IMG/VR virus record: IMGVR_UViG_3300043438_000252
Coordinates: 1 to 30,555 of that record
Length of the DNA stretch: 30,555 bases
Source: a virus
Direction: 5' to 3' (one strand)
The translations under genes were made by a program, and so were the position numbers. Of this stretch, positions 1,723 through 28,855 are shown in pieces (within the stretch, counting starts at the first letter, position 1; every line of letters starts with the position of its first letter). The notes beneath the pieces are model-generated. The model saw nothing but the letters and a program-made list of their open reading frames with translations. It searched no databases and was not told the DNA's origin.

Positions 1723-1956
1723 ATGCTTAACCTTACACTTAAAGGTGTAGAAGTTTTTATACAAAGGTCTAAGACAAAAAGTCAAGAATCATATTGGGAT
1801 AATTATGATTTGTTAATTTGGAAAGAAACCCCAGGCGGCTTTACTCATATAAAGGGAATGTTCCGAAAAGATCAGTGGGGCGTTGCAGAAAGAATTGCTG
1901 CTAACGAACAAGGAATCTGGAAGCTGCCGATAAAATATGTCAAACATTTTAAATGA
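1723..1956 (+). CDS. Hypothetical phage protein
   Basis: 77 residues, not recognised. It is rich in Trp, Lys and aromatic residues, with a basic C-terminus and no membrane segment or cysteines. GGAAAG precedes the ATG. It overlaps the WhiB-like gene by 20 bases, so the two are translated from one message. Confidence 0.6.
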   Translation: MLNLTLKGVEVFIQRSKTKSQESYWDNYDLLIWKETPGGFTHIKGMFRKDQWGVAERIAANEQGIWKLPIKYVKHFK

Positions 1957-2254
1957 ACTAGGTGTAGATGAAGATGATTTAGATTGGTTTCATCTAGGCA
2001 TTTGCAGAGGAATGGATACAAATTTATTTTATGACAAGTATGAGGCGGATGTCAATATAGCAAAAAGTATTGATGAGGCTTGTTTTAGTTGTCCAGTTTC
2101 AAAGATGTGTTATCAAGCTGGTGTAGAAAATGATGAGCAAGGAGTATGGGGAGGAATTTATTTAAATTCTGGATCTATAGATAAGGCAAGGAATCTACAC
2201 AAAACACCCGAAGCTTGGAAAAAGATTAGGATGAAAAATGGAATTTATAAATAA
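1937..2254 (+). CDS. whiB-like: WhiB-like [4Fe-4S] transcription factor
   Basis: 105 residues. The WhiB signature is complete: Cys23, then Cys49-x2-Cys52-x5-Cys58, followed by the turn GVWGG at 69-73 and a basic tail. The four cysteines bind a [4Fe-4S] cluster. WhiB proteins occur almost only in actinobacteria and their phages and act with the primary sigma factor. It may bind host sigma to redirect transcription, or control superinfection as reported for some mycobacteriophage WhiB proteins. It could be an activator for the unusual promoters seen here, which is inference. Confidence 0.9.
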   Translation: MSNILNELGVDEDDLDWFHLGICRGMDTNLFYDKYEADVNIAKSIDEACFSCPVSKMCYQAGVENDEQGVWGGIYLNSGSIDKARNLHKTPEAWKKIRMKNGIYK

Positions 2255-3342: not shown

Positions 3343-3357
3343 TATACTGGTAGTATG
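3343..3357 (+). promoter_or_regulatory. Leaderless promoter for the proteasome-like gene
   Basis: TATACT at 3343-3348, six bases, ATG at 3355. A possible weak -35, TTGGAC, lies at 3319-3324. Confidence 0.6.
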
Positions 3358-3912
3358 ACTTGTATTGTTGCTATCGCCCAAAACGGAACCGTATATATGG
3401 GTTCCGATCACGCCGCATCAGATGATAAAACTGGCTGGATCTTGTCAAGAAAAGAGCCTAAAGTTTTTAAAGTTGGGCAGTATGGCATTGCATTTACTGA
3501 TTCTTTTAGAATGGGTCAGATTCTTCAATACTCGTGGACTCCACCAAAATATACTCCAACAAAAACTAATTCTGGATTAGATAAGTTTATGAGAACTAAA
3601 TTTATTGATTCTGTTAAAGTTGCATTTAAGGATGGTGGATACGGAAGTATTGGCTCATCATCAGAAGAAGACTCAGGCGGTATTTTTATAGTTGGAGTTT
3701 GCGGAAGGCTCTTTACTATAGATGAAGACTTTCATGTTGGAGAGAATGTTGTAAACTATATGGCGGAAGGCAGTGGTGGAATGATAGCGCTTGGAGCCTT
3801 GCATGCAACAAAGAAGCAAAGAAACCCTAGACTTAGACTAAAGGCTGCATTAGAAGCAGCAACTGAGTTTAATATGAGCGTAGCTGCCCCCTATACATAC
3901 ATCCAAGTTTAA
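3355..3912 (+). CDS. Proteasome beta/HslV-like Ntn-hydrolase
   Basis: 185 residues, close to HslV length. The protein starts M-T-C-I-V-A; removal of Met would expose Thr1, the nucleophile of the proteasome and HslV family. Counting from Thr1, Asp17 lies in GSDHAASD and a lysine-rich RKEPK falls at 31-35 where the catalytic Lys is expected. The motif AEGSGGMIALGAL matches the conserved GSGG-x-x-A region of HslV and proteasome subunits. There is no propeptide, and no ATPase partner is seen in the window, so it may work alone or with a host unfoldase. Its own leaderless promoter sets the start. Confidence 0.8.
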   Translation: MTCIVAIAQNGTVYMGSDHAASDDKTGWILSRKEPKVFKVGQYGIAFTDSFRMGQILQYSWTPPKYTPTKTNSGLDKFMRTKFIDSVKVAFKDGGYGSIGSSSEEDSGGIFIVGVCGRLFTIDEDFHVGENVVNYMAEGSGGMIALGALHATKKQRNPRLRLKAALEAATEFNMSVAAPYTYIQV

Positions 3913-3914
3913 GG

Positions 3915-3929
3915 TATAATAGTAGTATG
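3915..3929 (+). promoter_or_regulatory. Leaderless promoter
   Basis: TATAAT at 3915-3920, six bases, ATG at 3927; it begins three bases after the proteasome-like gene's stop. Confidence 0.6.
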
Positions 3930-4286
3930 AAGTGGCTAATAGTAATCATACTTGCATTAGTAGTATACCGCTGGGTATCAAAGATTAAAAGAAATGTCAA
4001 TTTGTTTCTGGAAAACTATGAAATTGCAATTATAGACAAAGAAGATGTTGAGCGAGAAGGAAGTCATACCGACGACATCTTAAATCTTCGTCCTGAAAGT
4101 TACGAAAAATCTATGGATATAAGAGGCACCCCAACCCATCTATGCCCATGCGGATCACAAATATGGAACTTAAAAGTTATTTTTGAAGATTTTGAAATTG
4201 CTACATACTTCCTAGATATGGAATGTGTTAGCTGTGGTAGTGTTGCAACAGCACCTACCCCCGTAGACAGAGAGGGAATGGAATGA
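3927..4286 (+). CDS. Membrane-anchored zinc-ribbon protein
   Basis: 119 residues. One N-terminal membrane segment (about 3-17) is followed by a basic stretch, an acidic linker and a C-terminal four-cysteine ribbon: CPC near 73-75 and CVSC near 100-103. The ribbon would face the cytoplasm if the N-terminus acts as a simple anchor. Function unknown. Confidence 0.65.
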   Translation: MKWLIVIILALVVYRWVSKIKRNVNLFLENYEIAIIDKEDVEREGSHTDDILNLRPESYEKSMDIRGTPTHLCPCGSQIWNLKVIFEDFEIATYFLDMECVSCGSVATAPTPVDREGME

Positions 4287-4466: not shown

Positions 4467-4494
4467 TTGACAATCTGTCAATATTTAGTAGAAT
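4467..4494 (+). promoter_or_regulatory. Promoter of the subtilase gene with palindromic -35
   Basis: TTGACA at 4467-4472 and TAGAAT at 4489-4494 are 16 bases apart; ATG at 4502 lies seven bases after the -10, so the message is probably leaderless. The -35 is the left arm of an inverted repeat TTGACA-ATC-TGTCAA (4467-4481), a possible operator. Confidence 0.65.
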
Positions 4495-4501
4495 GGTTAC
4501 T

Positions 4502-5458
4502 ATGAATAAAAAAATAACTATGGCCCTAGTGGCCTTAATGCTTACTGCACCAATCACGGCAAATGCGTCAGTTAAGAGAACACTTAGCAACACATCTTTG
4601 CCAGCACCTACGATAGCAATCCTGGATACAGCGATTGACATGTCACAAACAAAGTTTCAAAATAGCGTTGTTCACGAAGTTTGTTTAATTGAAATCTTTT
4701 TTGATTCGACACCACGTTGCCCAAATGGACTTACTCAAATGGAAGGTCCTGGAGCAGCCACACTTCCAAAAGATAGGCTAGCGCTAAGCGGATTTGATCA
4801 TGGAACTTTAATGGCAGATCAAGCACTTCAAGCTAATCCAAACGTAAAGATTGTATTTATTAGAATTGTTGGACAGCGTGTAAATGGCACCAGAGAGCAC
4901 ACAAATGAAGCAACTGTTTACAATGCTCTTCAATGGGTAATAAACAATCAATCTAAATTTAATATTCAGTCTGTTGCGATGGCACAAGGATCACACTCCC
5001 TAGGTGTTGCTGGAACAGATTACTGTCCAAAAACTCCGACAACTGTTGAGAAGGTTAAGTCTCTAAACGCCCTTGGTGTTGGAGTTTTCTTTCCAGCAGG
5101 TAACAATAGCGACTACAAGAGAGTTTCATGGCCTTCTTGTATTCCAGAGGCAATTTCTATGGGTGCAACAATGCCAACTGGCTCTATCGCATTCTATTCT
5201 AATTACGATGCTAAGCTAATTGATTTCTATGCTAGAGGAACAACTGTTCTATACGGACTTGACGCTAAGAAAACTAACTTTGCTGGAACTTCAGCATCTG
5301 TTTTAGTTGGAGCAACGTCATGGGCAACCATTAAATCTGTTAAGTCTAATTTAACTTACACAGAACTATATGATTTAATTTCAAGAACTTCTGCTGTAAC
5401 AACAAGTTCAAGAGTCGGCAGCGGTAAGCTAATAGACTTGGCAAAAGCAATTGGCTGA
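4502..5458 (+). CDS. Secreted subtilisin-like serine protease
   Basis: 318 residues from ATG 4502. The upstream in-frame ATG at 4493 overlaps the -10 box and is unlikely. A Sec signal peptide runs over residues 1-22 with cleavage near ANA-S. The S8 triad is readable: Asp42 in ILDTAID, His100 in FDHGTLMA and Ser264 in FAGTSAS, with oxyanion Asn201 in FPAGNNSD. There is little room for a pro-domain, unlike most secreted subtilases. It would be exported by the host and could cut surface or virion proteins. Phage subtilases are uncommon. Confidence 0.85.
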   Translation: MNKKITMALVALMLTAPITANASVKRTLSNTSLPAPTIAILDTAIDMSQTKFQNSVVHEVCLIEIFFDSTPRCPNGLTQMEGPGAATLPKDRLALSGFDHGTLMADQALQANPNVKIVFIRIVGQRVNGTREHTNEATVYNALQWVINNQSKFNIQSVAMAQGSHSLGVAGTDYCPKTPTTVEKVKSLNALGVGVFFPAGNNSDYKRVSWPSCIPEAISMGATMPTGSIAFYSNYDAKLIDFYARGTTVLYGLDAKKTNFAGTSASVLVGATSWATIKSVKSNLTYTELYDLISRTSAVTTSSRVGSGKLIDLAKAIG

Positions 5459-5663
5459 AGATAAGACAACAGTTCTAGAAGGAATCATTCAGGATATTGG
5501 CAGAGAGTTATATCAGAAATGGTATAACGCTCTTGCTATTGAAGACAGGACTGAAGAAGCATCAAAAGTAATGTTAGCAAACGCTAACGAGACCGCCTTC
5601 TGGACTATTCAAGAATTTATGAATAGATTCAATGCAGCAGCAGAAGCACTAAAGGATAACTAA
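5451..5663 (+). CDS. Hypothetical helical protein, TTG start
   Basis: 70 residues starting at TTG, overlapping the subtilase stop by 8 bases. Predominantly helical and acidic. Not recognised. It lies between the subtilase and thioredoxin genes in one message. Confidence 0.55.
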   Translation: MAEDKTTVLEGIIQDIGRELYQKWYNALAIEDRTEEASKVMLANANETAFWTIQEFMNRFNAAAEALKDN

Positions 5664-5664
5664 A

Positions 5665-5967
5665 TTGATCATAACTGATAATTCATTTGACGAAGTAGTA
5701 TCAGCGAATGATCTGGTCCTTATTGATTTCTGGGCTGAATGGTGTGGTCCATGCAAGATGCTCTCTCCGATCCTTGATGAGATATCAAATGAGCGTGGCC
5801 TACTGGTCGGTAAGTTAAATGTTGATGATAATCCTCAAAAAATGGAGGAGTTTTCTGTACATTCAATACCAACTATGGTATTATTTAAGTCTGGTCAACC
5901 AGTTAAGACGATTACTGGTGCTAAACCTAAACACCTTCTGTTAAAGGAGTTGTCAGAATGGATTTAG
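5665..5967 (+). CDS. trxA-like: Thioredoxin
   Basis: 100 residues, near full thioredoxin length. The active site WCGPC has Cys27 and Cys30; the cis-proline loop is HSIPT with Pro69. The start is TTG. It would reduce disulfides in the cytoplasm and is a plausible electron donor for the phage ribonucleotide reductase at 29946, as in other phages; some phages also use thioredoxin as a polymerase processivity factor. It sits one base after the preceding gene. Confidence 0.93.
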   Translation: MIITDNSFDEVVSANDLVLIDFWAEWCGPCKMLSPILDEISNERGLLVGKLNVDDNPQKMEEFSVHSIPTMVLFKSGQPVKTITGAKPKHLLLKELSEWI

Positions 5968-6158
5968 AATTTGATTCAGAAGATGCTAATCATTTAGAGT
6001 TTGAAATATGGCTTAAGAATGGTTATGATCGAGGTTGGGTATCAGATGTATTTTGTGATACACATGATGGTCCACCAATGTCAGATGAAGAAATGCAAGA
6101 ATGGGAAGAGGGCGGAGATCCCTGTTCGTTTCATGTAAAGATACATGAATTACACTAA
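5958..6158 (+). CDS. Acidic hypothetical phage protein
   Basis: 66 residues, strongly acidic, with a central DTHDGP and a run of Glu, then one Cys near the end. It overlaps the thioredoxin gene by 10 bases. This kind of small acidic protein with a DTHDGPPM motif resembles hypothetical proteins of actinophages, but no function is known. Confidence 0.6.
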   Translation: MDLEFDSEDANHLEFEIWLKNGYDRGWVSDVFCDTHDGPPMSDEEMQEWEEGGDPCSFHVKIHELH

Positions 6159-6205: not shown

Positions 6206-7240
6206 ATGAACTCATTTAAGAAAGTATCGCTAATCATCGCTGCAGCCCTGACTAGCACAATGCTTGTATCGCCAGCAGCTCAGGCTAACGCTGGAACTGT
6301 CACCCTAACGGTGGCGGGAACTGCAGCAACAGGTGGAACAGTAGTAACAACTCCTGTATCACTACCAGTACCAGCAGATAACAGTGTAGATGCAGCAGAT
6401 GCATTGAAGATTGCCGTAACAGGCGTAGACACTGGAACAGTAGTAACAGCAGTTGCAGTAAATGCAACACTTGTTCCTGCGCTTGCAGCAACTGGTGCAG
6501 CAGTAACAGCATCATCTGGATCCTCAACGCTATCAATTGCAACAGGAACTGGAACATCAGCAGACTTTTATGTATATACTAAAAGTACAGCAGTAGGATC
6601 AGTATCGATTACTCGTGCTGGAACTACAACAGTTTATTATGTCCAGGGTACCGCAGGTGCTTTGAACTCAATTACACTAACCGCTCCTGCATCAGCAGCA
6701 GCAGGTACATCACAGGTGCTTAAGGTGTCTGGATTTGACGTGTTTGGTAATCCAAAGGGCGGAGCCACAATTAATACTTTGGTTTCAAGCTCTGGAGTAG
6801 CACTATCAACAGCGCTAACAACTGACACAGCAACAGCAACACTTGGAACAAAAGAGCAGACAGTAACAGTTCCTGCAACTGGTTCAATCACAGTAGTTGC
6901 ATACGCAACAGTAGCAACAGCCGTAACAGGTTTAGCAGCACCAGTCGGTTCTGTAAGCGCTACAATTGTAGTACGTGATATTGCAGCAGAACTTGCAGCA
7001 AAGAATGCAGAATTAGCAACAGCTAATGCAGCACTCAAGGCAGCACAAGATGCTCTAGCAGCAGAGAAGGCAGGACGTGCAGCCGATAAGGCAGCATCAG
7101 ATTCTGCAACAGTTACCGCTAAGGTAGCGTCTGATCTAGCAGCAGCAACAGCAGCAGCAAAGTACAAGGCGGAATACAATGCACTTGCAACTAAGTGGAA
7201 CAAGAAGTTTCCTAAGCTAAAGGTTGCACTAAAGAAGTAA
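6206..7240 (+). CDS. Exported Ala/Thr/Val-rich repeat protein with coiled-coil tail
   Basis: 344 residues. Signal peptide at about 1-29 (NSFKK, hydrophobic core, AQANA). The body to about 255 is almost only Ala, Thr, Val, Ser and Gly with many short beta-like repeats, reading like Ig-like or adhesin domains; one region near 150-180 resembles an invasin-type Ig segment (AAAGTSQVLKVSGFDVFGNP). Residues 256-320 form an Ala/Glu/Lys coiled coil, and the end is basic. AGGAG precedes the ATG and a strong terminator follows, which suggests high expression. It could be a surface coat, adhesin or exclusion factor of the infected cell, or a virion fibre component. Confidence 0.7.
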   Translation: MNSFKKVSLIIAAALTSTMLVSPAAQANAGTVTLTVAGTAATGGTVVTTPVSLPVPADNSVDAADALKIAVTGVDTGTVVTAVAVNATLVPALAATGAAVTASSGSSTLSIATGTGTSADFYVYTKSTAVGSVSITRAGTTTVYYVQGTAGALNSITLTAPASAAAGTSQVLKVSGFDVFGNPKGGATINTLVSSSGVALSTALTTDTATATLGTKEQTVTVPATGSITVVAYATVATAVTGLAAPVGSVSATIVVRDIAAELAAKNAELATANAALKAAQDALAAEKAGRAADKAASDSATVTAKVASDLAAATAAAKYKAEYNALATKWNKKFPKLKVALKK

Positions 7241-7250
7241 ATCTTCTATT

Positions 7251-7282
7251 AAAGGGGCAGGACTTTAGGGTCTTGCCCCTTT
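7251..7282 (+). terminator. Rho-independent terminator
   Basis: AAAGGGGCAGGAC (7251-7263) pairs with 7270-7282 across a six-base loop, with one G-U pair, and ends in TTT. It closes the large exported-protein gene. Confidence 0.85.
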
Positions 7283-7295
7283 ACCCTATAAATGC

Positions 7296-15052: not shown

Positions 15053-15079
15053 TTTATATCCTTTCGTTGATATGTTCCA

Positions 15080-15101
15080 ATTATACAATGGACCACTGAC
15101 A
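15080..15101 (-). promoter_or_regulatory. TGTCAG-N10-TATAAT promoter of the ten-gene operon
   Basis: Leftward TGTCAG (15096-15101), ten bases, TATAAT (15080-15085), followed by a leader with AACGAAAGGA before the ATG at 15052. Confidence 0.75.
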
Positions 15102-15119
15102 TTTGGAATAGATTTTGGG

Positions 15120-15135
15120 TGTGATACACCCCACA
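15120..15135. promoter_or_regulatory. CRP-like site, one mismatch
   Basis: TGTGA-N6-CCACA. Centre about 54 bases upstream of the predicted start of the 15052 operon. It overlaps a GGGTGT/ACACCC palindrome (15117-15131). Confidence 0.4.
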
Positions 15136-15145
15136 TTATTCAGCT

Positions 15146-15161
15146 TTGTGGTCAAGATCAC
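15146..15161. promoter_or_regulatory. CRP-like site, one mismatch
   Basis: TGTGG-N6-TCACA within TTTGTGGTCAAGATCACAAA, very close to the classical CRP consensus. Centre about 80 bases upstream of the predicted start. Confidence 0.5.
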
Positions 15162-15226
15162 AAAATTCCAGGGAAATTTAATTTGATCTCGTAAACAAAA
15201 TATGATACCCTCTGCTTTTGCGGGCA

Positions 15227-15256
15227 AGCAAAAACCCCCAGCTTGCGCTGAGGGTT
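15227..15256 (-). terminator. Rho-independent terminator
   Basis: AACCC-C-CAGC (15233-15242) pairs with GCTG-A-GGGTT (15247-15256) over TTGC; read leftward it is followed by TTTTTGC. Confidence 0.8.
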
Positions 15257-15372
15257 AAGAAAGTAAAGGCCGCTAGGATCTACCAACGAAAGTAAAAAGC
15301 CCTGCATTGCTTAGCGACTTGGGGGATCCCCTGGTAGCCGCACCTGTACTTATGAAGAAGGTCCCTGGACCT
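15227..15372 (-). ncRNA. Candidate small RNA with anti-leader sequence
   Basis: Read leftward, a TATAAT (15379-15384) lies just before 15372 and a terminator (15233-15256 with a T-run) ends the stretch. No reading frame is visible. Nested pairings can be drawn: 15280-15285 with 15332-15337, 15290-15293 with 15317-15320 and 15297-15300 with 15309-15312; GGTCC/GGACC forms a 5' hairpin. Bases 15281-15292 contain the complement of the leader TACCAACGAAAG of the leftward genes. It may instead be the structured 3' UTR of the 15745 operon. Confidence 0.45.
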
Positions 15373-15379
15373 ACTCCAA

Positions 15380-15745
15380 TTATACCACAACTAGTTGACT
15401 GTATTTACTGCAGAATTTATCTAAAGATAAACTGAATACTTCTGTGGTTAGGTCCTCTTCCATTAATGTAAACGTTTGCTGGGCCCAATCAATTACAGGA
15501 ATCTTGTGCTCATTGTCTAGAATTCTATTAACACTTAAGCCCCAGCCTGTTTCAGACTTCCAGTCTTCGCCTATCATTTGTGACACACAAATACGTGTTG
15601 CATATGATTCATCCGTCCACCTTGGACGTGCAGCCTCAACCGCATTCGCTAAGCGCTCCAACATACCGTGGCCCGCCCAGTGTCCGTATAGAAAGATAGT
15701 AGTGTCATTAGATTGCTTGAATCCAAAGTTTGCTCTGTCGCCCAT
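15380..15745 (-). CDS. Conserved phage protein (GDRANFGF family)
   Basis: 121 residues. The start MGDRANFGF and the following FLYGHWAGHGM are typical of a widespread hypothetical family in actinophages. Later Trp-rich segments suggest a compact alpha/beta fold. Function unknown. The TAA stop overlaps the possible promoter of the RNA candidate. Preceded by GGCGGA two codons after the neighbouring gene. Confidence 0.65.
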   Translation of the reverse strand: MGDRANFGFKQSNDTTIFLYGHWAGHGMLERLANAVEAARPRWTDESYATRICVSQMIGEDWKSETGWGLSVNRILDNEHKIPVIDWAQQTFTLMEEDLTTEVFSLSLDKFCSKYSQLVVV

Positions 15746-15747
15746 TT

Positions 15748-15951
15748 TTATTCCGCCGTTTCTAGTATAGGTGCTGCTTCTTCGATTTTGTTTAATTCTA
15801 TCACTTCGTATGAGACCTTGTCAAGGGCCTCTTTGTTCTTATTAAAATGGTGCCCGCAAAATGCTAGCTCACCATCCATAAGTTTAATTAGATACATCGC
15901 CTGTGCTGAGCTGCATTGGTCGCAGCCAATCCAACGATTTAGATCTTCCAT
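15748..15951 (-). CDS. DUF7455-like zinc-binding protein
   Basis: 67 residues. The pattern CDQC-SSAQA ... G-E-L-A-FCGHH matches the short DUF7455 family common in actinobacteria and their phages; the two Cys pairs and histidines probably bind zinc. A tail of about 25 residues is acidic. It overlaps the previous stop by one base. Confidence 0.75.
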   Translation of the reverse strand: MEDLNRWIGCDQCSSAQAMYLIKLMDGELAFCGHHFNKNKEALDKVSYEVIELNKIEEAAPILETAE

Positions 15952-16097
15952 TATAGTTTCCCGCCTTCTATCATTTCACAAAGACGGTCAAGAATCCAAG
16001 TATCGATATCGTTAATATCAATCTCTGATAGTCTTTCCATCATCTCTTCACGAGCAAACTTATACCCGTCATCAAAACCATCTTTGTAATCTGACAT
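15951..16097 (-). CDS. 48-residue helical acidic protein
   Basis: Acidic and helical, ending CEMIEGGKL. Both ends overlap neighbours by one base (TAATG). Not recognised. Confidence 0.55.
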   Translation of the reverse strand: MSDYKDGFDDGYKFAREEMMERLSEIDINDIDTWILDRLCEMIEGGKL

Positions 16098-16309
16098 TAC
16101 TTCTCCTTATATCCTGTCGCTTCTCTATCTGACCAGTATGATTCTTTTAAATTATACTTGTCACGAATGCGACTTACTTTCTCTATACTACCAGTTCCAA
16201 CATTGAATGTCAACGGTGGCATAAACTCAGGGTCGAGTCCAGTGATTTGTGCATCCCAATAAGCCATCTCAAGAGATAGCCTATCGGGAGCAGTCAACTC
16301 AAAATACAT
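16097..16309 (-). CDS. Hypothetical phage protein
   Basis: 70 residues from ATG 16309, which overlaps the previous stop (TAATG); an upstream ATG at 16330 would reach into the previous gene. Alpha/beta protein beginning MYFELTAPD. Function unknown. Confidence 0.6.
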   Translation of the reverse strand: MYFELTAPDRLSLEMAYWDAQITGLDPEFMPPLTFNVGTGSIEKVSRIRDKYNLKESYWSDREATGYKEK

Positions 16310-16968
16310 TATGCTTCTCTTACGTGGCAAACTTCGGTGTCATCGATTGTGATGTTACCGTTATTTGAATCGGCGTAAAGAGCATCTGTGACTTCTGAAT
16401 CAAGGTCCAATTCATAATCTGAATCTAATACATTGTATGAATATGTTCCGCTAACTTCAAGAGTCGCAGTAAATAGAACTTCTCTGATTAGTTCAATGCC
16501 AAGCGCTTCAGCAATTGAACGGAGTGTATCTTGGTCATCTGAATCGGCATATGCCTCAGTGATAATATCCTTGACTGTATTAATCTTGTCTTGGTAGACA
16601 CCATTCTGCTTCTGTGCCTGACGTGCATTGTGTAGGTCCCATTCAATTGATGTGACTTTGTCAGTTGCATATTCTGCATCTGAATAACCACGGATTACTT
16701 TGTATGTAACCAATAAATTAGGATTGTATGTATCAGGAATTGTTACTGCTGATGTTTCTGTTGTTTCCATTGGTTCCTCTTTCGTTAGGGGTGTATCTGT
16801 ATACGGTATTGTAGCATCTTCCACTGACACCAAGGTGCATCTAGAGTTGCAAGGGCATGTGAGTTGCATCACACCGTTTGGCCATCCAAATCCATCTTTA
16901 ATTGTATATTCAATTAGAGCATCACAGTCTCCCGTGCACACCCAGGTATACTTATTATAAGTTGTCAT
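16309..16968 (-). CDS. Zinc-finger protein with internal promoter and second start
   Basis: 219 residues from the leaderless ATG at 16968. Residues 1-66 hold a four- or five-cysteine domain (WVCTGDCDAL ... CPCNSRC). Near codon 46 the frame reads through a complete TGTCAG-N10-TACAAT promoter and AACGAAAGAGGA leader, and a second ATG at 16770 gives a 153-residue acidic form, METTETSAV..., without the zinc domain. Two nested proteins are therefore expected. The C-terminal domain was not recognised. Confidence 0.7.
   Translation of the reverse strand: MTTYNKYTWVCTGDCDALIEYTIKDGFGWPNGVMQLTCPCNSRCTLVSVEDATIPYTDTPLTKEEPMETTETSAVTIPDTYNPNLLVTYKVIRGYSDAEYATDKVTSIEWDLHNARQAQKQNGVYQDKINTVKDIITEAYADSDDQDTLRSIAEALGIELIREVLFTATLEVSGTYSYNVLDSDYELDLDSEVTDALYADSNNGNITIDDTEVCHVREA
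16808..16829 (-). promoter_or_regulatory. TGTCAG-N10-TACAAT promoter inside a gene
   Basis: TGTCAG (16824-16829), ten bases, TACAAT (16808-16813), followed by AACGAAAGAGGA before ATG 16770. Confidence 0.7.
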
Positions 16969-16974
16969 GCGAGT

Positions 16975-16996
16975 ATTATAGCGGACCCCACTGACA
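16975..16996 (-). promoter_or_regulatory. TGTCAG-N10-TATAAT promoter, leaderless
   Basis: TGTCAG (16991-16996), ten bases, TATAAT (16975-16980), then exactly six bases to the ATG at 16968. This joins the leftward motif with the leaderless spacing of the rightward genes. Confidence 0.7.
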
Positions 16997-17033
16997 TTTA
17001 CTAGCTTTTCCAGGGAATTTTTTACGATCCCCG

Positions 17034-17049
17034 TATGATTAAAATCACA
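17034..17049. promoter_or_regulatory. CRP-like site, one mismatch
   Basis: TATGA-N6-TCACA, centre about 73 bases upstream of the predicted start at 16968. Confidence 0.45.
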
Positions 17050-17079
17050 CCCGCAATACTGCGGGCATTGTCGACAAAT
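17050..17079. repeat. GC-hairpin plus TTGTCGACAA repeat, copy 1
   Basis: CCCGCA-N4-TGCGGG (17050-17065) followed by CATTGTCGACAAAT. The same 30-base unit recurs near 18359 and 21460. Confidence 0.6.
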
Positions 17080-17087
17080 CTATTTAG

Positions 17088-17161
17088 CGACCCCTACGGG
17101 ACTTGAACCCGTGACCTCTACCGTGACAGGGTAGCGCTCTAACCAACTGAGCTAAGAGATC
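17088..17161 (-). tRNA. tRNA-Asp (GTC)
   Basis: A full cloverleaf is drawn on the minus strand: acceptor GATCTCT/AGGGGTC with G-U pairs, D-arm GCTC-AGTTGGTTA-GAGC, anticodon arm CTACC-CTGTCAC-GGTAG (anticodon GTC), T-arm ACGGG-TTCAAGT-CCCGT and discriminator G. No CCA is encoded. It lies 40 bases after the DUF932-like gene and may be processed from its message. Confidence 0.95.
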
Positions 17162-17200
17162 TTGCAGGCAGTTTTAAATCTTGCCTAGGATTTTTTTTAT

Positions 17201-18208
17201 TTAGAAAGTTGCAACCATTCGATACAACTTATTTTTTTCAGCAGTTAGAATTGGGTCAAAGCCTGATGCACCAGCCATTAGTGTTTCAGAATTGCCACGA
17301 CCTGAACGATAGTAATCAAGGCGCTCAGTTAGTGCATTGAACGCACCCCACTTAGTTCCCTTGATTGTAGCGTTAGTTGGTGAGTTATGATAAAGGTCAT
17401 CGATTAGGACAACTTTATTTTCCCACTTAGTAAGAGCAACCTTCGCTGCATCTTTATCTGGCTTAGGATAGATTGTCTGAATCAACTTAGAGAATTCAGC
17501 ATCAGTGATTGCTTGTGAGTAAAGCGCTTTTGCTTGAACTTCGAATTCATCAAAGTATCCAAGAGCAAGCCCAAGAGTTTCACGAGCAACTTGAATGCGA
17601 CCTTCAACAGATTGCGTGTGGCGAATCTTGAAAGATTGCTTAGCATTCTTCATTGCAAGGTTTAGCGTGTTTTGGCACACAACACGAACAGGTGTAACGG
17701 CTGCTTGAACAGCAACAGAGCCATCGTGTGATGTCCATACGATTAGATATAATTTAGTTTGGTCATTAGCGCCTTGTGGGTCTAATACCATTGTGCGGGG
17801 AATATCGACAGTGCCGAAAACTACTTTACCCTTTTTTAGTGAGCCAGCAGATTCCCAACGGCAATCAGCATTGGCATCGTGAATTGCATCAGCAAATGCG
17901 AATAGTTCTTCATTCTGCACAGGCTTGTAACGCTTACCAACAGTTGCGAGAACATCGATTCCCTTATTGAATGGGTTGTCACGAATGACAAGAGATGCCT
18001 GAGATACATCATTCCAAGATTCTGAAATGTGGTCAGTTAGTGGAGACAAGCGAACATTCCAGTTGGAAAGTTTTGCTTCGTCAAGCATTGTTTGAGTTGT
18101 GACTTCCTCATCTTTTGTAAAGATGCGGTTTGCAAGGTTGTGCCAAGCAGGAGCGCCACGGAGAGCGAAAGCAACTTCGCCATTTTCGACTTCGAGATTA
18201 TGAGCCAT
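17201..18208 (-). CDS. DUF932-like phage/plasmid protein
   Basis: 335 residues. The start MAHNLEVENGEVAFALRGAPAWHNL and the overall length match the DUF932 phage/plasmid-like family (TIGR03299 type), whose members are common in large phages but have no settled function; links to recombination have been proposed. Basic helices fill the C-terminal half. It is a single-gene unit with promoter, leader and a following tRNA. Confidence 0.85.
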   Translation of the reverse strand: MAHNLEVENGEVAFALRGAPAWHNLANRIFTKDEEVTTQTMLDEAKLSNWNVRLSPLTDHISESWNDVSQASLVIRDNPFNKGIDVLATVGKRYKPVQNEELFAFADAIHDANADCRWESAGSLKKGKVVFGTVDIPRTMVLDPQGANDQTKLYLIVWTSHDGSVAVQAAVTPVRVVCQNTLNLAMKNAKQSFKIRHTQSVEGRIQVARETLGLALGYFDEFEVQAKALYSQAITDAEFSKLIQTIYPKPDKDAAKVALTKWENKVVLIDDLYHNSPTNATIKGTKWGAFNALTERLDYYRSGRGNSETLMAGASGFDPILTAEKNKLYRMVATF

Positions 18209-18237
18209 TTTTTACCTTTCGTTTGTTTGTTAGATTC

Positions 18238-18259
18238 ATTATAACAGGTGGGTCTGACA
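18238..18259 (-). promoter_or_regulatory. TGTCAG-N10-TATAAT promoter of the DUF932-like gene
   Basis: TGTCAG (18254-18259), ten bases, TATAAT (18238-18243), then an AACGAAAGGT leader. Confidence 0.75.
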
Positions 18260-18297
18260 TTATCAATGGTTAGATACAATATGTCCGAATTGGGCGG

Positions 18298-18313
18298 TGT
18301 GATCATTCTCACA
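18298..18313. promoter_or_regulatory. CRP-like palindrome, perfect
   Basis: TGTGA-N6-TCACA, centre about 74 bases upstream of the predicted start of the DUF932-like gene. Confidence 0.55.
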
Positions 18314-18348
18314 AATTTTCAGGGTTTTTCCACAGGTAGCCGTAAGGC

Positions 18349-18357
18349 TGTGGATAA
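18349..18357. promoter_or_regulatory. DnaA-box match
   Basis: Exact TGTGGATAA next to a GCCGTAAGGC stretch, upstream of the DUF932-like gene. Confidence 0.5.
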
Positions 18358-18358
18358 C

Positions 18359-18388
18359 CCCGCACCCTTGCGGGCATTGTCGACAAAT
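18359..18388. repeat. GC-hairpin plus TTGTCGACAA repeat, copy 2
   Basis: CCCGCA-N4-TGCGGG (18359-18374) then CATTGTCGACAAAT. Confidence 0.6.
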
Positions 18389-18393
18389 AGATA

Positions 18394-18420
18394 GGGCGGG
18401 ATTTCGGATTGATCCCGCCC
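18394..18420 (-). terminator. Terminator after the 18654 gene
   Basis: GGGCGGGAT (18394-18402) pairs perfectly with ATCCCGCCC (18412-18420) over nine bases, located seven bases after the leftward gene's stop. Confidence 0.75.
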
Positions 18421-18426
18421 CAACTT

Positions 18427-18654
18427 TTAATTTGCTTGAAACTTTTTAGTTATACTTTCATCAAGAAACATTGCTGTAACCTTTTTCTTTTTTACATTGT
18501 CATACACGTAAGCATTTACTCTTCCGTGAAACTTTCGCAAATTAGAAAAAACTAATTCAGTTAGATAATCTCTATCTACACCTTGCTCTGAATAAATAGT
18601 TACATCATTCATCTTGTTTGCGTCATAGATTTCTACACGATAACGATTTTTCAT
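18427..18654 (-). CDS. Hypothetical basic protein
   Basis: 75 residues, basic, beta-rich (RYRVEIYDANKMNDVTIY...) with a KKKKV cluster. A TATACT -10 and an AAAGAAAG leader lie upstream, without TGTCAG. Not recognised. Confidence 0.6.
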   Translation of the reverse strand: MKNRYRVEIYDANKMNDVTIYSEQGVDRDYLTELVFSNLRKFHGRVNAYVYDNVKKKKVTAMFLDESITKKFQAN

Positions 18655-18692
18655 TTTGGTCTTTCTTTAGTAGGGATAAGAAGTATAACATT

Positions 18693-18717
18693 GGGGGCTA
18701 GCTTTTGTCTAGCCCCC
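18693..18717 (-). terminator. Hairpin between two leftward genes
   Basis: GGGGGCTAG (18693-18701) pairs with CTAGCCCCC (18709-18717) over seven bases. The -10 of the next gene (18682-18687) begins five bases later. There is no clear T-run, so termination is likely but not certain. Confidence 0.6.
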
Positions 18718-18723
18718 ATAAGA

Positions 18724-18906
18724 TTATGCGCCGATTTTTACCATTGCCCAGCGAAGACCATTTTCTGTATTCAATCCAAGTTTAGTTAGAGTTGGACGGA
18801 TAGAAATGATTTCCTCGATAGTGCCAGTAATTCCTGATTTGCCAGTTGTGAATACATCTCCCTTGCGGTAGAAGCGACCCTTAGCGGTATCTAGAATTGG
18901 TGACAT
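18724..18906 (-). CDS. Small beta-barrel-like protein, paralogue of 19556 gene
   Basis: 60 residues. Strand-rich pattern G-D-V-F-T-T-x-K-S-x-x-T-G-x-I-x-E-I-I ... E-N-G-x-R-W shared with the 19556 gene, so both look like copies of one small SH3-like fold. Leader CCGAAAGGA. Function unknown. Confidence 0.6.
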   Translation of the reverse strand: MSPILDTAKGRFYRKGDVFTTGKSGITGTIEEIISIRPTLTKLGLNTENGLRWAMVKIGA

Positions 18907-19008
18907 TTTATTTCCTTTCGGTAGTTGGTTGGTGAGCAGTTTAGCAACTTACTCAGGTTGTTTGGGTTTAGGTGTCTAGACTTTGTGTGCTAACCCCCCA
19001 AAACCTAT

Positions 19009-19425
19009 TTAGAGATACTTAGCAATCTGCTTCATTGTGGAAGCATTTACTGTTTCCTCATCTGTCATCTTGAGAATTGTGAGAGCATTTGTAATGTCCT
19101 CTTTCATCTCACGATACTGGTGCTGATGGATAACCTCAAAATCCTTTTCAGGTTCAGCAGGAAAACTTCCATCTTTTGTGATGATGTCAAAATCAACATT
19201 GAGAGTGTTGTTCCATTGACGATAGTTTGTGCGAAGGTTCTCAGCCTTTGAGAAGTTAGCAATAGCCCACTTGCCGATTTCCTTGCGCCACGCTTCTTGC
19301 GCTTTGCCGAACTTTGCTTCCTTTGCGGTCTGTGTGTTGTAATCGTTTTCTAGCGTTGCTAGACGAGCCTCTAGTGCCTTGATTACTTTGCTTGTTGCTA
19401 CCTTTACTGTGATTTGTCTGCTCAT
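19009..19425 (-). CDS. Hypothetical helical phage protein
   Basis: 138 residues from ATG 19425 behind an AACGAAAGGA leader; the frame runs on to 19482 through the promoter and that part is not expected to be translated. Mostly helical with a long heptad-like first half. Not recognised. Confidence 0.65.
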   Translation of the reverse strand: MSRQITVKVATSKVIKALEARLATLENDYNTQTAKEAKFGKAQEAWRKEIGKWAIANFSKAENLRTNYRQWNNTLNVDFDIITKDGSFPAEPEKDFEVIHQHQYREMKEDITNALTILKMTDEETVNASTMKQIAKYL

Positions 19426-19453
19426 TGTATTTCCTTTCGTTGGTTGGTTGATT

Positions 19454-19475
19454 AGTATAGCAGGGGGGTCTGACA
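19454..19475 (-). promoter_or_regulatory. TGTCAG-N10-TATACT promoter
   Basis: TGTCAG (19470-19475), ten bases, TATACT (19454-19459), leader CCAACGAAAGGA. Just upstream is a small CCACC-CGAA-GGTGG hairpin (19479-19492). Confidence 0.7.
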
Positions 19476-19555
19476 TTTCCACCCGAAGGTGGAGAGTTCT
19501 TACTTACGACATTGGGCGAGAACACTCTCTAAACTGCCCCTGTTTCGCTAGGTGA

Positions 19556-19729
19556 TTAGGCTAGGTTATCGGCTAGAACTGTTGTCCAGCGTTCTCCGTT
19601 GTCTGTTTCCAGACGAACTCTCACCGAGCCAGATGAGTTAGGAATAATCTCTTTGATTACGCCTGTTTCTTTAGACTTCAGGGTAGTGAATAAATCACCG
19701 ACCTGATAGACTTTGTTATCTATTGTCAT
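19556..19729 (-). CDS. Small beta-barrel-like protein, paralogue of 18724 gene
   Basis: 57 residues. Shares the V-G-D-L-F-T-T-x-K-S-x-x-T-G-x-I-x-E-I-I ... D-N-G-E-R-W pattern with the 18724 gene. Leader AAGAAAGGA. Function unknown. Confidence 0.6.
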   Translation of the reverse strand: MTIDNKVYQVGDLFTTLKSKETGVIKEIIPNSSGSVRVRLETDNGERWTTVLADNLA

Positions 19730-25337: not shown

Positions 25338-26054
25338 ATGTATAATTTTGATGTGTACGAACTCCCAGGACCTACTGCTATATTAGAACCGTTGTCTGTA
25401 AAAAGACAATGGGCTACAGATCTTCCTTATCCTCATGCATACAAATGTTTTCCTATGACCCTTGCAAATCAAATGGGGTACGGAATATCTTTTCCAGACG
25501 ATATTATTTTTGAGTGGGACGGAAATATGAATGTCTTGCCATCTAGTGTAAAAGTAACTTCTGGGCATAAATGGGTTAATATGGATAGAGGTTGGGGAAC
25601 CGTTAGCTTTAACACAGGAATAGTATTTAAAACTGATGAAGATGTAAGTATGCTTTCATATCCAGTGCCTAATCTATTTATAGAAGGATTCCAAATTTTC
25701 ACAACACTCATTTCAACTTCATTTTTTGAAAGTCCTTGGCAAGTTGCAGGACAGGTTACAAGATCAAATTATAAAATAATTTTGCCAGCAAGAACTCCAG
25801 TATCTGCTGTGATGCCAATATCACTTGGTCAGTTAAATGAATCGGTGGCAACCAAAAAACCTTTTGAAGAATTAGAGTATAATAAGAATACAGGACACGA
25901 ATATCATAAGCATAATGCTATGATGCAAAAGTTAGGGAAGACTACTGGTAATTACAGAGATGGTGTAAACCATAAGGGTGTAGTTTACGGTAAACATGAA
26001 GTTAAATCTATTAAGTTGAGGTATGATAATGGTAACTTACCACTGGATGAATAG
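25338..26054 (+). CDS. DUF6065-like protein
   Basis: 238 residues. The order KCFPMTLANQMGYGI ... DIIFEWDG ... WGTVSF-NTG-I-V-F-K-T-D ... PNLFIEGFQ ... W near 130-140 reads like the DUF6065 family, a beta-rich domain of unknown function. It overlaps the luciferase-like gene by 32 bases, and the pair is probably co-expressed and perhaps works together. Confidence 0.7.
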   Translation: MYNFDVYELPGPTAILEPLSVKRQWATDLPYPHAYKCFPMTLANQMGYGISFPDDIIFEWDGNMNVLPSSVKVTSGHKWVNMDRGWGTVSFNTGIVFKTDEDVSMLSYPVPNLFIEGFQIFTTLISTSFFESPWQVAGQVTRSNYKIILPARTPVSAVMPISLGQLNESVATKKPFEELEYNKNTGHEYHKHNAMMQKLGKTTGNYRDGVNHKGVVYGKHEVKSIKLRYDNGNLPLDE

Positions 26055-26859
26055 GGCTGATGCAGCCCTAAGTATAATTACAATGAAAAGAATGTTTGCT
26101 CATAAAGAAAAGTTTGGGTATGATTCAATTCTTTTAACATCTAAAGGTAGCAACTCGGACAACTGGATAAAATCTGCTCACATTGTAGATCCTAGTAAAA
26201 AAATTAAATTTATGATAGCAGTTAGACCATATCAGCAAACTGCTCAGATTGTAAATCAAATGGCAGCTGCATTTGCTGAAATTGCTCCACACAGATTGAT
26301 GCTTAATGTTGTTTCTGGGGAAATGGGTGGAAATGAAATTGGTCTTATTCCAGAAGGAAGTTATGAAGTAAATACTGACATAACTACTCCACTAGGAAGA
26401 CTTGAATTTGTTCCTGAATGGATGGAAAGACTTTCTAAGACCTATGTAATGGGAAGAAAGCCAATTATCCTACTAGGTACTAGAAATAAAGAGGTTATCC
26501 TAAAAGCTGCTAAGTATGCAGATATTGGATTAGTAATGCTAGATGATTTCTTGGCAGATCCTGATCTATTTTTGTCAAATTATAAGAGGGTAATGGTTAG
26601 TGCTCAGATTGTCATAAGGAATACATATGAAGAAGCTCACTATGAGTTAGAAAATAGTTTTTCTACACATATAAGAATCAAGAGATGGGCTATCTATGGC
26701 GGCAGAGAAGATATAAAGAAAAAGTTATTAGAATTAGAAGCAATGGGTGTAACTGATATTTTACTTAGTAATGGGACAGATGTAGTTAGTCAATCAGATG
26801 GGCCTGTAGATGAATTAGTCTGGGAGATTATACAGGAAAGAAATAAAGCAGTTGACTAG
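26023..26859 (+). CDS. Luciferase-like flavin monooxygenase
   Basis: 278 residues. TIM-barrel features of the bacterial luciferase-like family are visible: IAVRPYQQTAQIVNQMAAAF near 66-85, LMLNVVSGEMGGNE near 93-106, and GRLEFVPEWMERL before a second GxR stretch. Members use FMNH2 or F420 to oxidise or reduce small substrates, and actinobacteria often use F420. Very unusual as a phage gene, so it may be a metabolic gene taken from a host. The substrate cannot be told from sequence. Confidence 0.75.
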   Translation: MIMVTYHWMNRADAALSIITMKRMFAHKEKFGYDSILLTSKGSNSDNWIKSAHIVDPSKKIKFMIAVRPYQQTAQIVNQMAAAFAEIAPHRLMLNVVSGEMGGNEIGLIPEGSYEVNTDITTPLGRLEFVPEWMERLSKTYVMGRKPIILLGTRNKEVILKAAKYADIGLVMLDDFLADPDLFLSNYKRVMVSAQIVIRNTYEEAHYELENSFSTHIRIKRWAIYGGREDIKKKLLELEAMGVTDILLSNGTDVVSQSDGPVDELVWEIIQERNKAVD

Positions 26860-26867
26860 GATTATGG

Positions 26868-26882
26868 TATAATAATAATATG
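26868..26882 (+). promoter_or_regulatory. Leaderless promoter
   Basis: TATAAT at 26868-26873, six bases, ATG at 26880. TTGACT lies 10 bases upstream of the -10, too close for a normal -35. Confidence 0.5.
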
Positions 26883-27023
26883 CACGATCACGAGAATATA
26901 GTATTAGCCACAGGTTCAGGAATAACTGAAATGCAACTAATGTGGATTCTTATGGGTTTAATGGCTATTCATCACATATGGATGTGGTGGAAAATGAAAA
27001 AGAAAGACTGTAACTGTAAATGA
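26880..27023 (+). CDS. 47-residue His/Met/Trp-rich membrane protein
   Basis: MHDHE start, one hydrophobic segment containing IHHIWMWW, and a Lys-rich tail ending CNCK. The His, Met and Cys could bind a metal such as copper. First of four tiny membrane genes linked by overlaps. Function unknown. Confidence 0.55.
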   Translation: MHDHENIVLATGSGITEMQLMWILMGLMAIHHIWMWWKMKKKDCNCK

Positions 27024-27097
27024 GTTGGTTACAAGCAACAGTTATATTTGGACCTATATTGATTCTATTAATAGCATTCTGGAAGGATATCAAATGA
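27020..27097 (+). CDS. 25-residue membrane peptide
   Basis: ATGA overlap with both neighbours; one hydrophobic helix ending in WKDIK. Function unknown. Confidence 0.45.
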   Translation: MSWLQATVIFGPILILLIAFWKDIK

Positions 27098-27237
27098 AGA
27101 AGATCTATGCTTTAATTGCTCTAACTGCGACAGCAGTCTTTTCAGGTCTTGCTATGTCTAAATTTTTAAATTGGGCGGGACAGCAAGAAATCTTTGATTT
27201 TGACCTAAATGAAGATATAGATCATGAAGAGATATAG
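27094..27237 (+). CDS. 47-residue membrane-anchored acidic protein
   Basis: Start at ATG 27094 behind GGAAGG. One hydrophobic segment (about 4-20) then an acidic tail (DFDLNEDIDHEEI). A frame reaching back to 27025 is not favoured. Function unknown. Confidence 0.55.
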   Translation: MKKIYALIALTATAVFSGLAMSKFLNWAGQQEIFDFDLNEDIDHEEI

Positions 27238-27307
27238 ATTACTTATATTAATTCCATTGGTCCTAATAACTACCTATGTACTGGGTATTGTAATACAGAT
27301 TAAATAG
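27224..27307 (+). CDS. 27-residue membrane peptide
   Basis: Overlaps the previous gene by 14 bases; basic N-terminus and one hydrophobic helix (LLILIPLVLITTYVLGIVI). Function unknown. Confidence 0.45.
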   Translation: MKRYRLLILIPLVLITTYVLGIVIQIK

Positions 27308-27634
27308 CTCATCTTTTATCTCCCGCCCTTTCTGGGGTCTTTGTATCGGAGATACCAAATATGACCCGTTAAGGGCTTAGAGGCCCCGTAGAGGCCTTAT
27401 ATGGCATATTTTTAGAATGATCACATATGGGAAAGATGGGCTTCTATTTTCGGCGCACTTTTTTTCGCACTAATTGCACTATATGTCCTAATTGTCTATA
27501 TAAGAAAAAAACCCAATCAGAGGCGGATCCGATTGGGCTTTTCTAGTGTATTACTACACGTTATATAGGGAGACATTGCTGCCGTCACCTACACATCTTA
27601 ATTGTAATATGGAATATTTTATATGTCAAGCATT
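27308..27634. other. Convergent intergenic region
   Basis: 327 bases without a clearly supported gene. From about 27409 two frames are open: one (ATG 27429) encodes a CTICPNC ribbon-like stretch of 39 residues, the other, without a start codon, a membrane-like segment with a basic tail. A bidirectional terminator lies at 27512-27537. Nothing else convincing. Confidence 0.4.
27505..27541. terminator. Bidirectional terminator
   Basis: CCCAATC (27512-27518) pairs with GATTGGG (27531-27537) over 12 bases; an A-run (27505-27511) precedes and CTTTT follows, so it can stop transcription from both sides. Confidence 0.8.
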
Positions 27635-27841
27635 TTAGTTGACAGGATTTTCAGACGGAGTAAATGATGGCTCAGGTCCAAGTAGATATCCTTGCTCATG
27701 ATAGTCAATCATCTTAGCCGTCTTTTCAGGATCTACTCCATTTGCCATAATTGTTAGCATATCGTAAATACGGTGAAGCATTATATAATTCACCATAGGT
27801 AGGTTGTCTTCTAGATTTCTAGATGGTTCTTTTTCTTCCAT
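27635..27841 (-). CDS. Hypothetical acidic phage protein
   Basis: 68 residues from ATG 27841, which overlaps the previous stop (TAATG) behind GGGGAG; an upstream ATG at 27865 is possible. Helical body (MLHRIYDMLTIMANGVD) and a Pro-rich tail. Function unknown. Confidence 0.6.
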   Translation of the reverse strand: MEEKEPSRNLEDNLPMVNYIMLHRIYDMLTIMANGVDPEKTAKMIDYHEQGYLLGPEPSFTPSENPVN

Positions 27842-28014
27842 TATGGTCTCCCCATATCGTTCCAAAATATTTCTCTTCCCATAGAGTCTTTCTCTAATAG
27901 GGCACTTGATTCAAATTCATATGAAGAAAAGGTCTCTTCTTCCGCCGACGCACTTTTTGTTTCAATTTGTAGTCCTTGACCACAATTGCAATTACTACAT
28001 CCATGTTCAGACAT
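27841..28014 (-). CDS. 57-residue protein with Cys cluster
   Basis: Begins MSEHGCSNCNCGQG, a metal-binding N-terminus like those at 7949 and 8291, then an acidic tail. Overlaps both neighbours. Function unknown. Confidence 0.55.
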   Translation of the reverse strand: MSEHGCSNCNCGQGLQIETKSASAEEETFSSYEFESSALLEKDSMGREIFWNDMGRP

Positions 28015-28213
28015 TGTTGACTTCTTTCACTAATTTCTCGTATACCTCTAAACCCATGTAGTTCTTGTAATCACAGGCCAGGCAGTATAAATAGATGTTA
28101 TCCTCTAAATCCAAATTACATTGAAGAGAGCCCTGATCCAGGGGGCATAAAAGCTCTGGAACAAGGCTCTCTTTTGATAAAGAGATATATTTCGATACAT
28201 ATTGTATCTTCAT
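28007..28213 (-). CDS. Zinc-ribbon-like phage protein
   Basis: 68 residues. CPLDQGSLQC-N ... YLYCLAC-D forms a four-cysteine site; the shape is common in small phage proteins. Starts six bases after the transglycosylase gene. Function unknown. Confidence 0.6.
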   Translation of the reverse strand: MKIQYVSKYISLSKESLVPELLCPLDQGSLQCNLDLEDNIYLYCLACDYKNYMGLEVYEKLVKEVNNV

Positions 28214-28218
28214 TTATC

Positions 28219-28770
28219 CTACTTCTTTTCAGTTGTTGGGAATCGCAATAGCCATTCCTGTGCTTTAGGGGTCATACCCTTCCAGCTGGACCAATCCTGA
28301 CCGCCATTGGTCATATAGTACGTTATCTCTGCGTTTGTTACTGGGTCGAATAACTCTTTGTTACTCTTTAGGTCGAACTTCTCAAGTCTTTCAGGACCAA
28401 GATTTCCGATCATGTTTATCTGGAATATTCCGTAAGAACTATCTCCAGTTGTCTTATCCCCGTTATATGCAAGCGGTCTTCCGTTAGATTCACGCTTTGC
28501 TATGGACCAAGCTTTTTTAAGGCCTACTCCTTCGAATCCTACAGTCTTAAGTAGCAATAGCAACTCTTCGTCTGTAAGCATCTCAGATGGCTTGTAAATT
28601 TCTTTACTGAACTTATCTAAGACTTCTTGCTTTAGTTGGGCTTCAGTTTTCACTAAAGGTTTTACTACTAAGGCTTGTGCGGGCTGGACTGGAAACATAA
28701 ATAATGTTATCATTACTATTGTAACCAGATTATGAGCCAAATCACTAACCTGTTGTTTTATTTTCTCCAT
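28219..28770 (-). CDS. Lytic transglycosylase-like protein (exported)
   Basis: 183 residues from ATG 28770, placed eight bases after AGGAGG; another ATG at 28776 is too close to it. The N-terminus is a membrane or signal segment (about 12-34, ending PAQA). The C-terminal lysozyme-like domain has the catalytic Glu94 in AKRESNGRP and the SYGIFQIN motif at 112-119. It would cut the glycan strands of the wall and may act in release or in virion entry. It is far from the CHAP endolysin. Confidence 0.8.
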   Translation of the reverse strand: MEKIKQQVSDLAHNLVTIVMITLFMFPVQPAQALVVKPLVKTEAQLKQEVLDKFSKEIYKPSEMLTDEELLLLLKTVGFEGVGLKKAWSIAKRESNGRPLAYNGDKTTGDSSYGIFQINMIGNLGPERLEKFDLKSNKELFDPVTNAEITYYMTNGGQDWSSWKGMTPKAQEWLLRFPTTEKK

Positions 28771-28803
28771 TGGCATTTCCTCCTCTAGAGATAACGAACT
28801 ACA

Positions 28804-28833
28804 ATCATAACATTGATAGGATAAGCCTGTCAA
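28804..28833 (-). promoter_or_regulatory. Sigma70-type promoter of the transglycosylase gene
   Basis: Leftward TTGACA (28828-28833), 18 bases, TATGAT (28804-28809). Independent of the TGTCAG element. Confidence 0.65.
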
Positions 28834-28855
28834 GCCAGTCAACTAGAAAGAAAAC

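Follow-up and report, generated by a model that had tools for sequence, protein, structure and literature searches.

Phages of aquatic Actinobacteria are abundant and hardly cultured, and secreted proteases that are encoded by a virus and act on the infected bacterium have, to our knowledge, been little explored. The sequence analysed here is a 30,555-base virus record from IMG/VR, referred to in its entirety as the window, and it encodes a subtilisin-like protease that appears to be exported. The initial annotation of the locus had described an exported subtilase under a palindromic promoter and had suggested a modification of the infected cell's surface. Its observation is partly confirmed, and its interpretation partly supported, by the comparison with related loci given below.

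A first scan of viral contigs with the subtilase gave 6 loci, and an alignment-based scan of viral contigs (tblastn, E ≤1e-3) gave 266 stretches, the best 80 of which were kept. Together with the window these form a study set of 81 loci, with 64 distinct subtilases and 60 distinct upstream regions; the remaining 186 stretches may hold more distant subtilases. The carriers are a group of uncultured aquatic phages. The window encodes a WhiB-like regulator (1937..2254, plus strand; Pfam PF02467, E 4.3e-11), which is found in 63 of the 64 distinct loci, and whiB is used as a marker of an actinobacterial host in the available text of PMC6802176. Because of this gene, the sequence points to an actinobacterial host; to name the Nanopelagicales, from the low G+C, would be a guess. 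A relative of 104 kb has a DNA polymerase that is nearest to those of Streptomyces phages such as BillNye (57%).

The subtilase and its relatives

The subtilase (318 aa) is encoded on the plus strand at 4502..5458, an assignment based on profile, fold, invariant residues and a signal rule, with the predicted signal peptide at about 4502-4567. The mechanical list of open reading frames starts the gene at ATG 4493, which was rejected as it overlaps the -10 hexamer TAGAAT (4489-4494) of the promoter and as an in-frame ATG is missing at this place from most relatives. The start is most likely ATG 4502, which is common to the relatives in the upstream alignment and from which residues are numbered here.

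That the gene is real and encodes an S8 subtilase with predicted export and catalysis is well supported. The protein matches Pfam PF00082 (Peptidase_S8) with an E-value of 2e-14, above the cut-off of that family, while profile searches of PHROGs and NCBIfam gave no match. An AlphaFold model built with 64 sequences has a mean pLDDT of 88, with residues 1-31 at low confidence, and superimposes on subtilisins with a Z-score of about 30 and an rmsd of 2.1 Å over about 249 residues. The initial annotation had credited the protein with the full S8 triad, a signal peptide and little pro-domain, and all three hold across the set. The triad residues Asp42 (4625-4627), His100 (4799-4801) and Ser264 (5291-5293) and the oxyanion residue Asn201 (5102-5104) are invariant in all 64 distinct proteins, as are four cysteines (Cys61, Cys73, Cys175 and Cys213). 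All 64 likewise pass the signal-peptide rule, a simple one of our own rather than SignalP. A lipobox or LPxTG motif was found in none of the 64, and none has a membrane stretch past the signal, judged by hydrophobic 19-mers above 2.0 beyond residue 40. In all 64 proteins the catalytic Asp falls within residues 30-43 of the precursor, too close to the N-terminus to accommodate a subtilisin-type pro-domain (I9), for which the Pfam search of the window protein also gave no match. Values of dN/dS were 0.05-0.19 in all 14 chosen pairs, supporting purifying selection on the coding sequence.

The proteins are of two sizes, with 18 of the 64 being 365-392 residues long against 305-319 for the others. 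The longer ones (e.g., in loci L045, L079, and L084) have an Ala-rich C-terminal extension of ~50-80 residues; the seven tails inspected are rich in Ala and Lys. In style these extensions are similar to the helix of the exported Ala/Thr-rich protein described below.

A classical secreted subtilisin has a signal peptide and a pro-domain of about 77 residues before its catalytic domain. The phage protein shares with the secreted bacterial S8 enzymes, such as subtilisin BPN′ and BprV of D. nodosus, the Asp-His-Ser triad, the oxyanion Asn, the fold and a Sec signal. However, it is only ~20% identical to them, is without the I9 pro-domain, has four invariant cysteines and lies in a fixed run of phage genes. 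The type VII secretion mycosins (MycP) are exported actinobacterial S8 proteases without the classical inhibitory pro-domain and resemble the phage enzymes in this, but the C-terminal membrane helix of mycosins is present in 0/64 of the phage subtilases. Bacterial secreted subtilisins often serve nutrition, and since the phage enzyme has the fold of a plain subtilisin, it could be a secreted protease that digests outside or surface proteins into peptides for the infected cell. Such a feeding role is quite improbable, as the gene block showed no recognisable transporter or peptidase next to the subtilase and, for a cell in dilute plankton, a free enzyme would mainly benefit neighbouring cells.

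Subtilases are already known from phages, and what appears to be new here is the clade and its operon. The search for phage homologues that had been proposed with the initial annotation gave, besides the best 80 of 266 viral-contig stretches, 3 of 50,697 GenBank phage records at E 1e-3, with 23-34% identity, none of them a Streptomyces phage. Compared as proteins and not as gene contexts, a protein of an uncultured Caudovirales phage (A0A6J5NRV7), one of Bacillus phage vB_BcoS-136 and one of Acinetobacter phage MD-2021a have the same phage-encoded subtilase fold at 24, 18, and 23% identity to the window subtilase, respectively, the first being longer (487 aa). Relatives were also present in 12 plasmid records, with identity no higher than 29.7%. 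As to host copies, two short peptide patterns per protein gave 233 matches in genome contigs for the subtilase and 215 for the exported partner, none of them confirmed as a relative; diverged host copies may have escaped patterns so few and short. The main text of PMC10202952, PMC6802176, and PMC12143481 has no mention of protease, peptidase or subtilisin, and the available text of PMC11039613 has none of subtilisin or S-layer. No description of this subtilase clade or gene run was found in the literature searched, supplements aside.

The promoter and its palindrome

The subtilase gene has a promoter of its own on the plus strand (4467..4494), with the -35 hexamer TTGACA (4467-4472), a 16-nt spacer and the -10 hexamer TAGAAT, together matching the consensus at 11 of 12 positions. 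A scan of the entire window gave 32 promoter sites against 34.8 in shuffled sequences; with no excess of sites, the consensus match alone proves little. ATG 4502 follows the -10 hexamer by 7 nt. The layout TTGACA-16-TAGAAT-7-ATG is that of a leaderless promoter of the sigma-70 type, where the start codon comes some 6-8 nt past the -10 hexamer, and it is kept across the relatives, with T at positions -17 and -16 from the ATG in 57 and 58, respectively, of 58 distinct upstream regions. The subtilase mRNA is apparently leaderless, and the two genes just upstream, starting at 3355 and 3927, share this layout. By our criteria the window has 8 leaderless-type sites and its reversed sequence 2, while for 100 kb of a relative the corresponding counts are 22 and 5, which suggests leaderless transcripts for several window genes; the looser pattern TANNNT-N6-ATG alone occurs 37 times against 31.9 expected, no excess. 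Starts lying 6-7 nt after a TANNNT box are found in the window at 171, 3355, 3927, 4502, 7308, and 9740 on the plus strand and at 16968 on the minus strand.

The palindrome reported in the initial annotation, TTGACA-ATC-TGTCAA, is exact at 4467..4481 and the -35 hexamer is one half of it; its standing as a control element did not survive the comparison. A repressor specific to the subtilase run, bound to the palindrome across the -35 hexamer, would account for an exact dyad (TTGACA-N3-TGTCAA) that is absent from 100 shuffles of the window, although the motif was picked after being seen. It would also suit the finding that the second arm keeps at least 5/6 bases in 12 of the 60 distinct upstream regions, some of them ahead of subtilases only 46-48% identical. 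Nevertheless, such a repressor is very unlikely. The -35 core TTGAC is kept in 60/60 distinct upstream regions, whereas the second arm matches fully in 6, has 5/6 bases in a further 6 and has at most 4/6 in the other 48. In locus L013 the subtilase is 78% identical to that of the window and the dyad is lost, the second arm matching at just 2/6 bases. With one mismatch allowed, there is a single dyad site per record in 7 records, one of 104 kb and several of them fragments. In addition, a perfect 6-base inverted repeat of any sequence (spacer 0-8) follows 157 of 30,535 window positions (0.5%), and there are 19 TTGACN+TANNNT pairs in the window, so that by our estimate a dyad would fall at some promoter in ~1/10 such windows.

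The spread of the second arm may also have a simple account. In a tree of the 64 subtilases, perfect or near-perfect second arms are scattered over several clades. Between locus L007 and the window, the gene just upstream is 93% identical while the subtilase is 46% identical, from which it appears that distant subtilases carry the arm through upstream DNA shared by recombination; the scatter fits this rather than a repeated origin of the dyad. On the above counts the palindrome was not retained as an operator, and it seems not to be a control element that is conserved. It is better described as a passing, lineage-specific inverted repeat, with the plain promoter being what is conserved, and it illustrates that even an eye-catching promoter palindrome may be a transient trait of a single lineage.

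The gene block and the exported partner

Profiles made from the window genes were run against the ORFs of the 64 distinct loci. The order whiB, HslV-like hydrolase, subtilase, small gene, thioredoxin and small gene is kept in 63-64 of the 64. In more detail, the genes for WhiB, a 109-aa protein, the HslV-like protein (3355..3912; phrog_1040, E 1.3e-18), a 119-aa protein (3927..4286; 63/64), a 59-aa protein, a 70-aa protein, thioredoxin and a 66-aa protein are each present in 63 or 64 loci, on one strand and in one order. The sequence of L087 begins too near the subtilase for the upstream members to show. Downstream of the subtilase, all on the plus strand, lie the 70-aa ORF, which overlaps the subtilase stop (5451..5663; 64/64), thioredoxin (5665..5967; 100 aa, without signal peptide; Pfam PF00085, E 1.6e-27; 64/64) and an acidic 66-aa ORF (5958..6158; 63/64). 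The thioredoxin that the initial annotation had placed in one gene run with the subtilase is thus a constant member of it.

The HslV-like protein is an Ntn hydrolase of the HslV/proteasome-beta type that starts Met-Thr and has a leaderless promoter of its own. Its relatives occur in 169 of the 50,697 GenBank phage records, and across the six closest contigs its identity is 92-100%, where that of the subtilase drops to 46%. In six loci (L027, L032, L037, L041, L065, and L084) the 70-aa gene and thioredoxin are separated by an additional gene, whose product of 156-170 aa has MQTFLP close to the N-terminus and may resemble a pyrimidine-dimer glycosylase; two other genes occupy that place in L044.

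The initial annotation had also pointed to an exported Ala/Thr-rich protein close by. This is encoded at 6206..7240 on the plus strand and, on the basis of its ORF, its model and its slot in the relatives, is predicted to have beta-sandwich domains, a long helix and a basic tail. The slot could be tested in 56 of the 64 loci, the other 8 ending too soon. In all 56, the nearest ORF of 250 aa or more downstream of the 66-aa gene encodes a protein with a hydrophobic stretch at its N-terminus that consists to 53-62% of Ala, Thr, Ser, and Val; 55 of the 56 proteins are without cysteine. By profile, 52 of them match the window protein (L041 marginally, at 9.5e-5), and the other four, in L070, L072, L073, and L085, have a similar layout without a profile match. 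The model of the window protein (mean pLDDT 82) shows the beta-sandwich domains followed by a helix at residues 259-334. Its structural matches are Ig-like domains with Z-scores of up to 10.8, the rmsd being poor over both domains and 2.3 Å over one. The protein has no Pfam match and no known cell-wall anchor, and it might be released from the cell. It matches nothing in the 50,697 phage records at E 1e-3. Its C-terminal motifs, searched as regular expressions of our own across the 81 loci and 100 kb of the 104-kb relative, gave hits at the end of frames of more than 120 residues at this slot only. The gene is followed by a strong RNA hairpin of 15 pairs (7250..7283, plus strand; -24.8 kcal/mol, z -3.7), which lacks the T run typical of intrinsic terminators and is absent from the terminator scan listing.

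As an exported-looking protein closes the run in every testable locus, the idea of an altered cell surface is strengthened. On the other hand, subtilase and exported protein were rejected as a co-diverging pair, their pairwise distances being uncorrelated (Spearman 0.03 over 54 loci), which speaks against a surface pairing. Most other gene pairs of the block also correlate poorly (0.67 at most), and for this reason genes are probably exchanged between these phages.

Possible roles of the protease

Comparison of the loci supports an intact catalytic site, the fold, the signal peptide, the lack of a pro-domain, purifying selection and the fixed gene order; the substrate, timing and purpose of the subtilase are what we infer. 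The explanation that we tentatively prefer, at somewhat less than an even chance, is that an envelope protease and its exported partner alter the surface of the infected cell, most likely keeping out competing phages. The leaderless promoter would head a run of five genes, with the subtilase first and the exported surface-like protein and its hairpin last. The subtilase, a cysteine-containing enzyme without a pro-domain, would leave the actinobacterial host cell by Sec export and cleave proteins of that cell's envelope, and the exported protein with its helical stalk would be placed on the same surface. Exclusion of competing phages would then be the most likely purpose of the altered surface, and is ranked first because the exported partner is constant and the bodies of the proteins are exchanged at that slot. 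As a working resemblance only, superinfection-exclusion proteins such as the lipoprotein Ltp from S. thermophilus phage TP-J34 are likewise phage-encoded, exported and located at the surface of the infected cell. The present system differs from them in a subtilase without lipobox and in having a protease together with a separate exported protein. A core exported protease with an exported surface-like protein in every checkable locus offers a concrete candidate mechanism by which these phages could change the cells that they infect.

A stronger form of this proposal, which is unlikely, takes the run as a surface-exchange device in which the subtilase strips host proteins and the helix-stalked protein replaces them. 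Phages would exchange the body of the latter among themselves while its place in the gene order stays constant, and the resulting phage-specified coat would exclude rivals or mislead grazers.

The 104-kb relative, in which 20 of the larger proteins were scanned for annotation, allows the position of the gene to be considered. Here the portal lies at 40 kb, a head maturation protease at 41.5 kb, the tape measure at 48.7 kb, a spike at 62 kb, the DNA polymerase at 71 kb, the terminase at 80 kb, an endolysin homolog at 86.6 kb and the subtilase at 90.2 kb. In this one annotated relative the subtilase gene is neither in nor next to the structural module. Phage structural proteins can carry subtilase domains, and among the BFVD matches are some whose names refer to tail fibre and baseplate. 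A virion-associated or capsid-processing protease, the possibility that the initial annotation had set against its own reading, is nevertheless highly improbable, as the subtilase has a signal peptide, its gene lies far from portal and tape measure, and the relative has a head maturation protease of its own.

The neighbourhood of the endolysin brings in a further role, in which the protease would act late in infection, stripping off a protein layer that lies outside the wall so that the progeny are freed once the endolysin has opened the wall. A CHAP endolysin (774-1373) is encoded about 3 kb upstream of the subtilase on the same strand, and in the 104-kb relative the distance is about 3.5 kb. 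However, within the retrieved DNA the endolysin was recognised in only 30 of the 64 distinct loci (many loci end too early to show it or may carry another), and the exported partner and thioredoxin would be left unexplained; aid in lysis is thus rather unlikely. A second candidate wall hydrolase in the window is an SLT_3 lysozyme-like protein with a hydrophobic N-terminal part, encoded on the minus strand (28219-28842).

Other features lie further along the window. A 27-nt element, TTAGTATAGCAGGGGGGTCTGACATTT, is present in 6 copies that are 67-89% alike before minus-strand genes between 18236 and 24233, and may be a repeated promoter. The right end (25338-29857) has genes for a DUF6065 protein, a luciferase-like protein and a glycosyltransferase. 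L092 has a related region (15065-19632), and in the 104-kb relative a DUF6065-like gene is located near a tryptophan halogenase.
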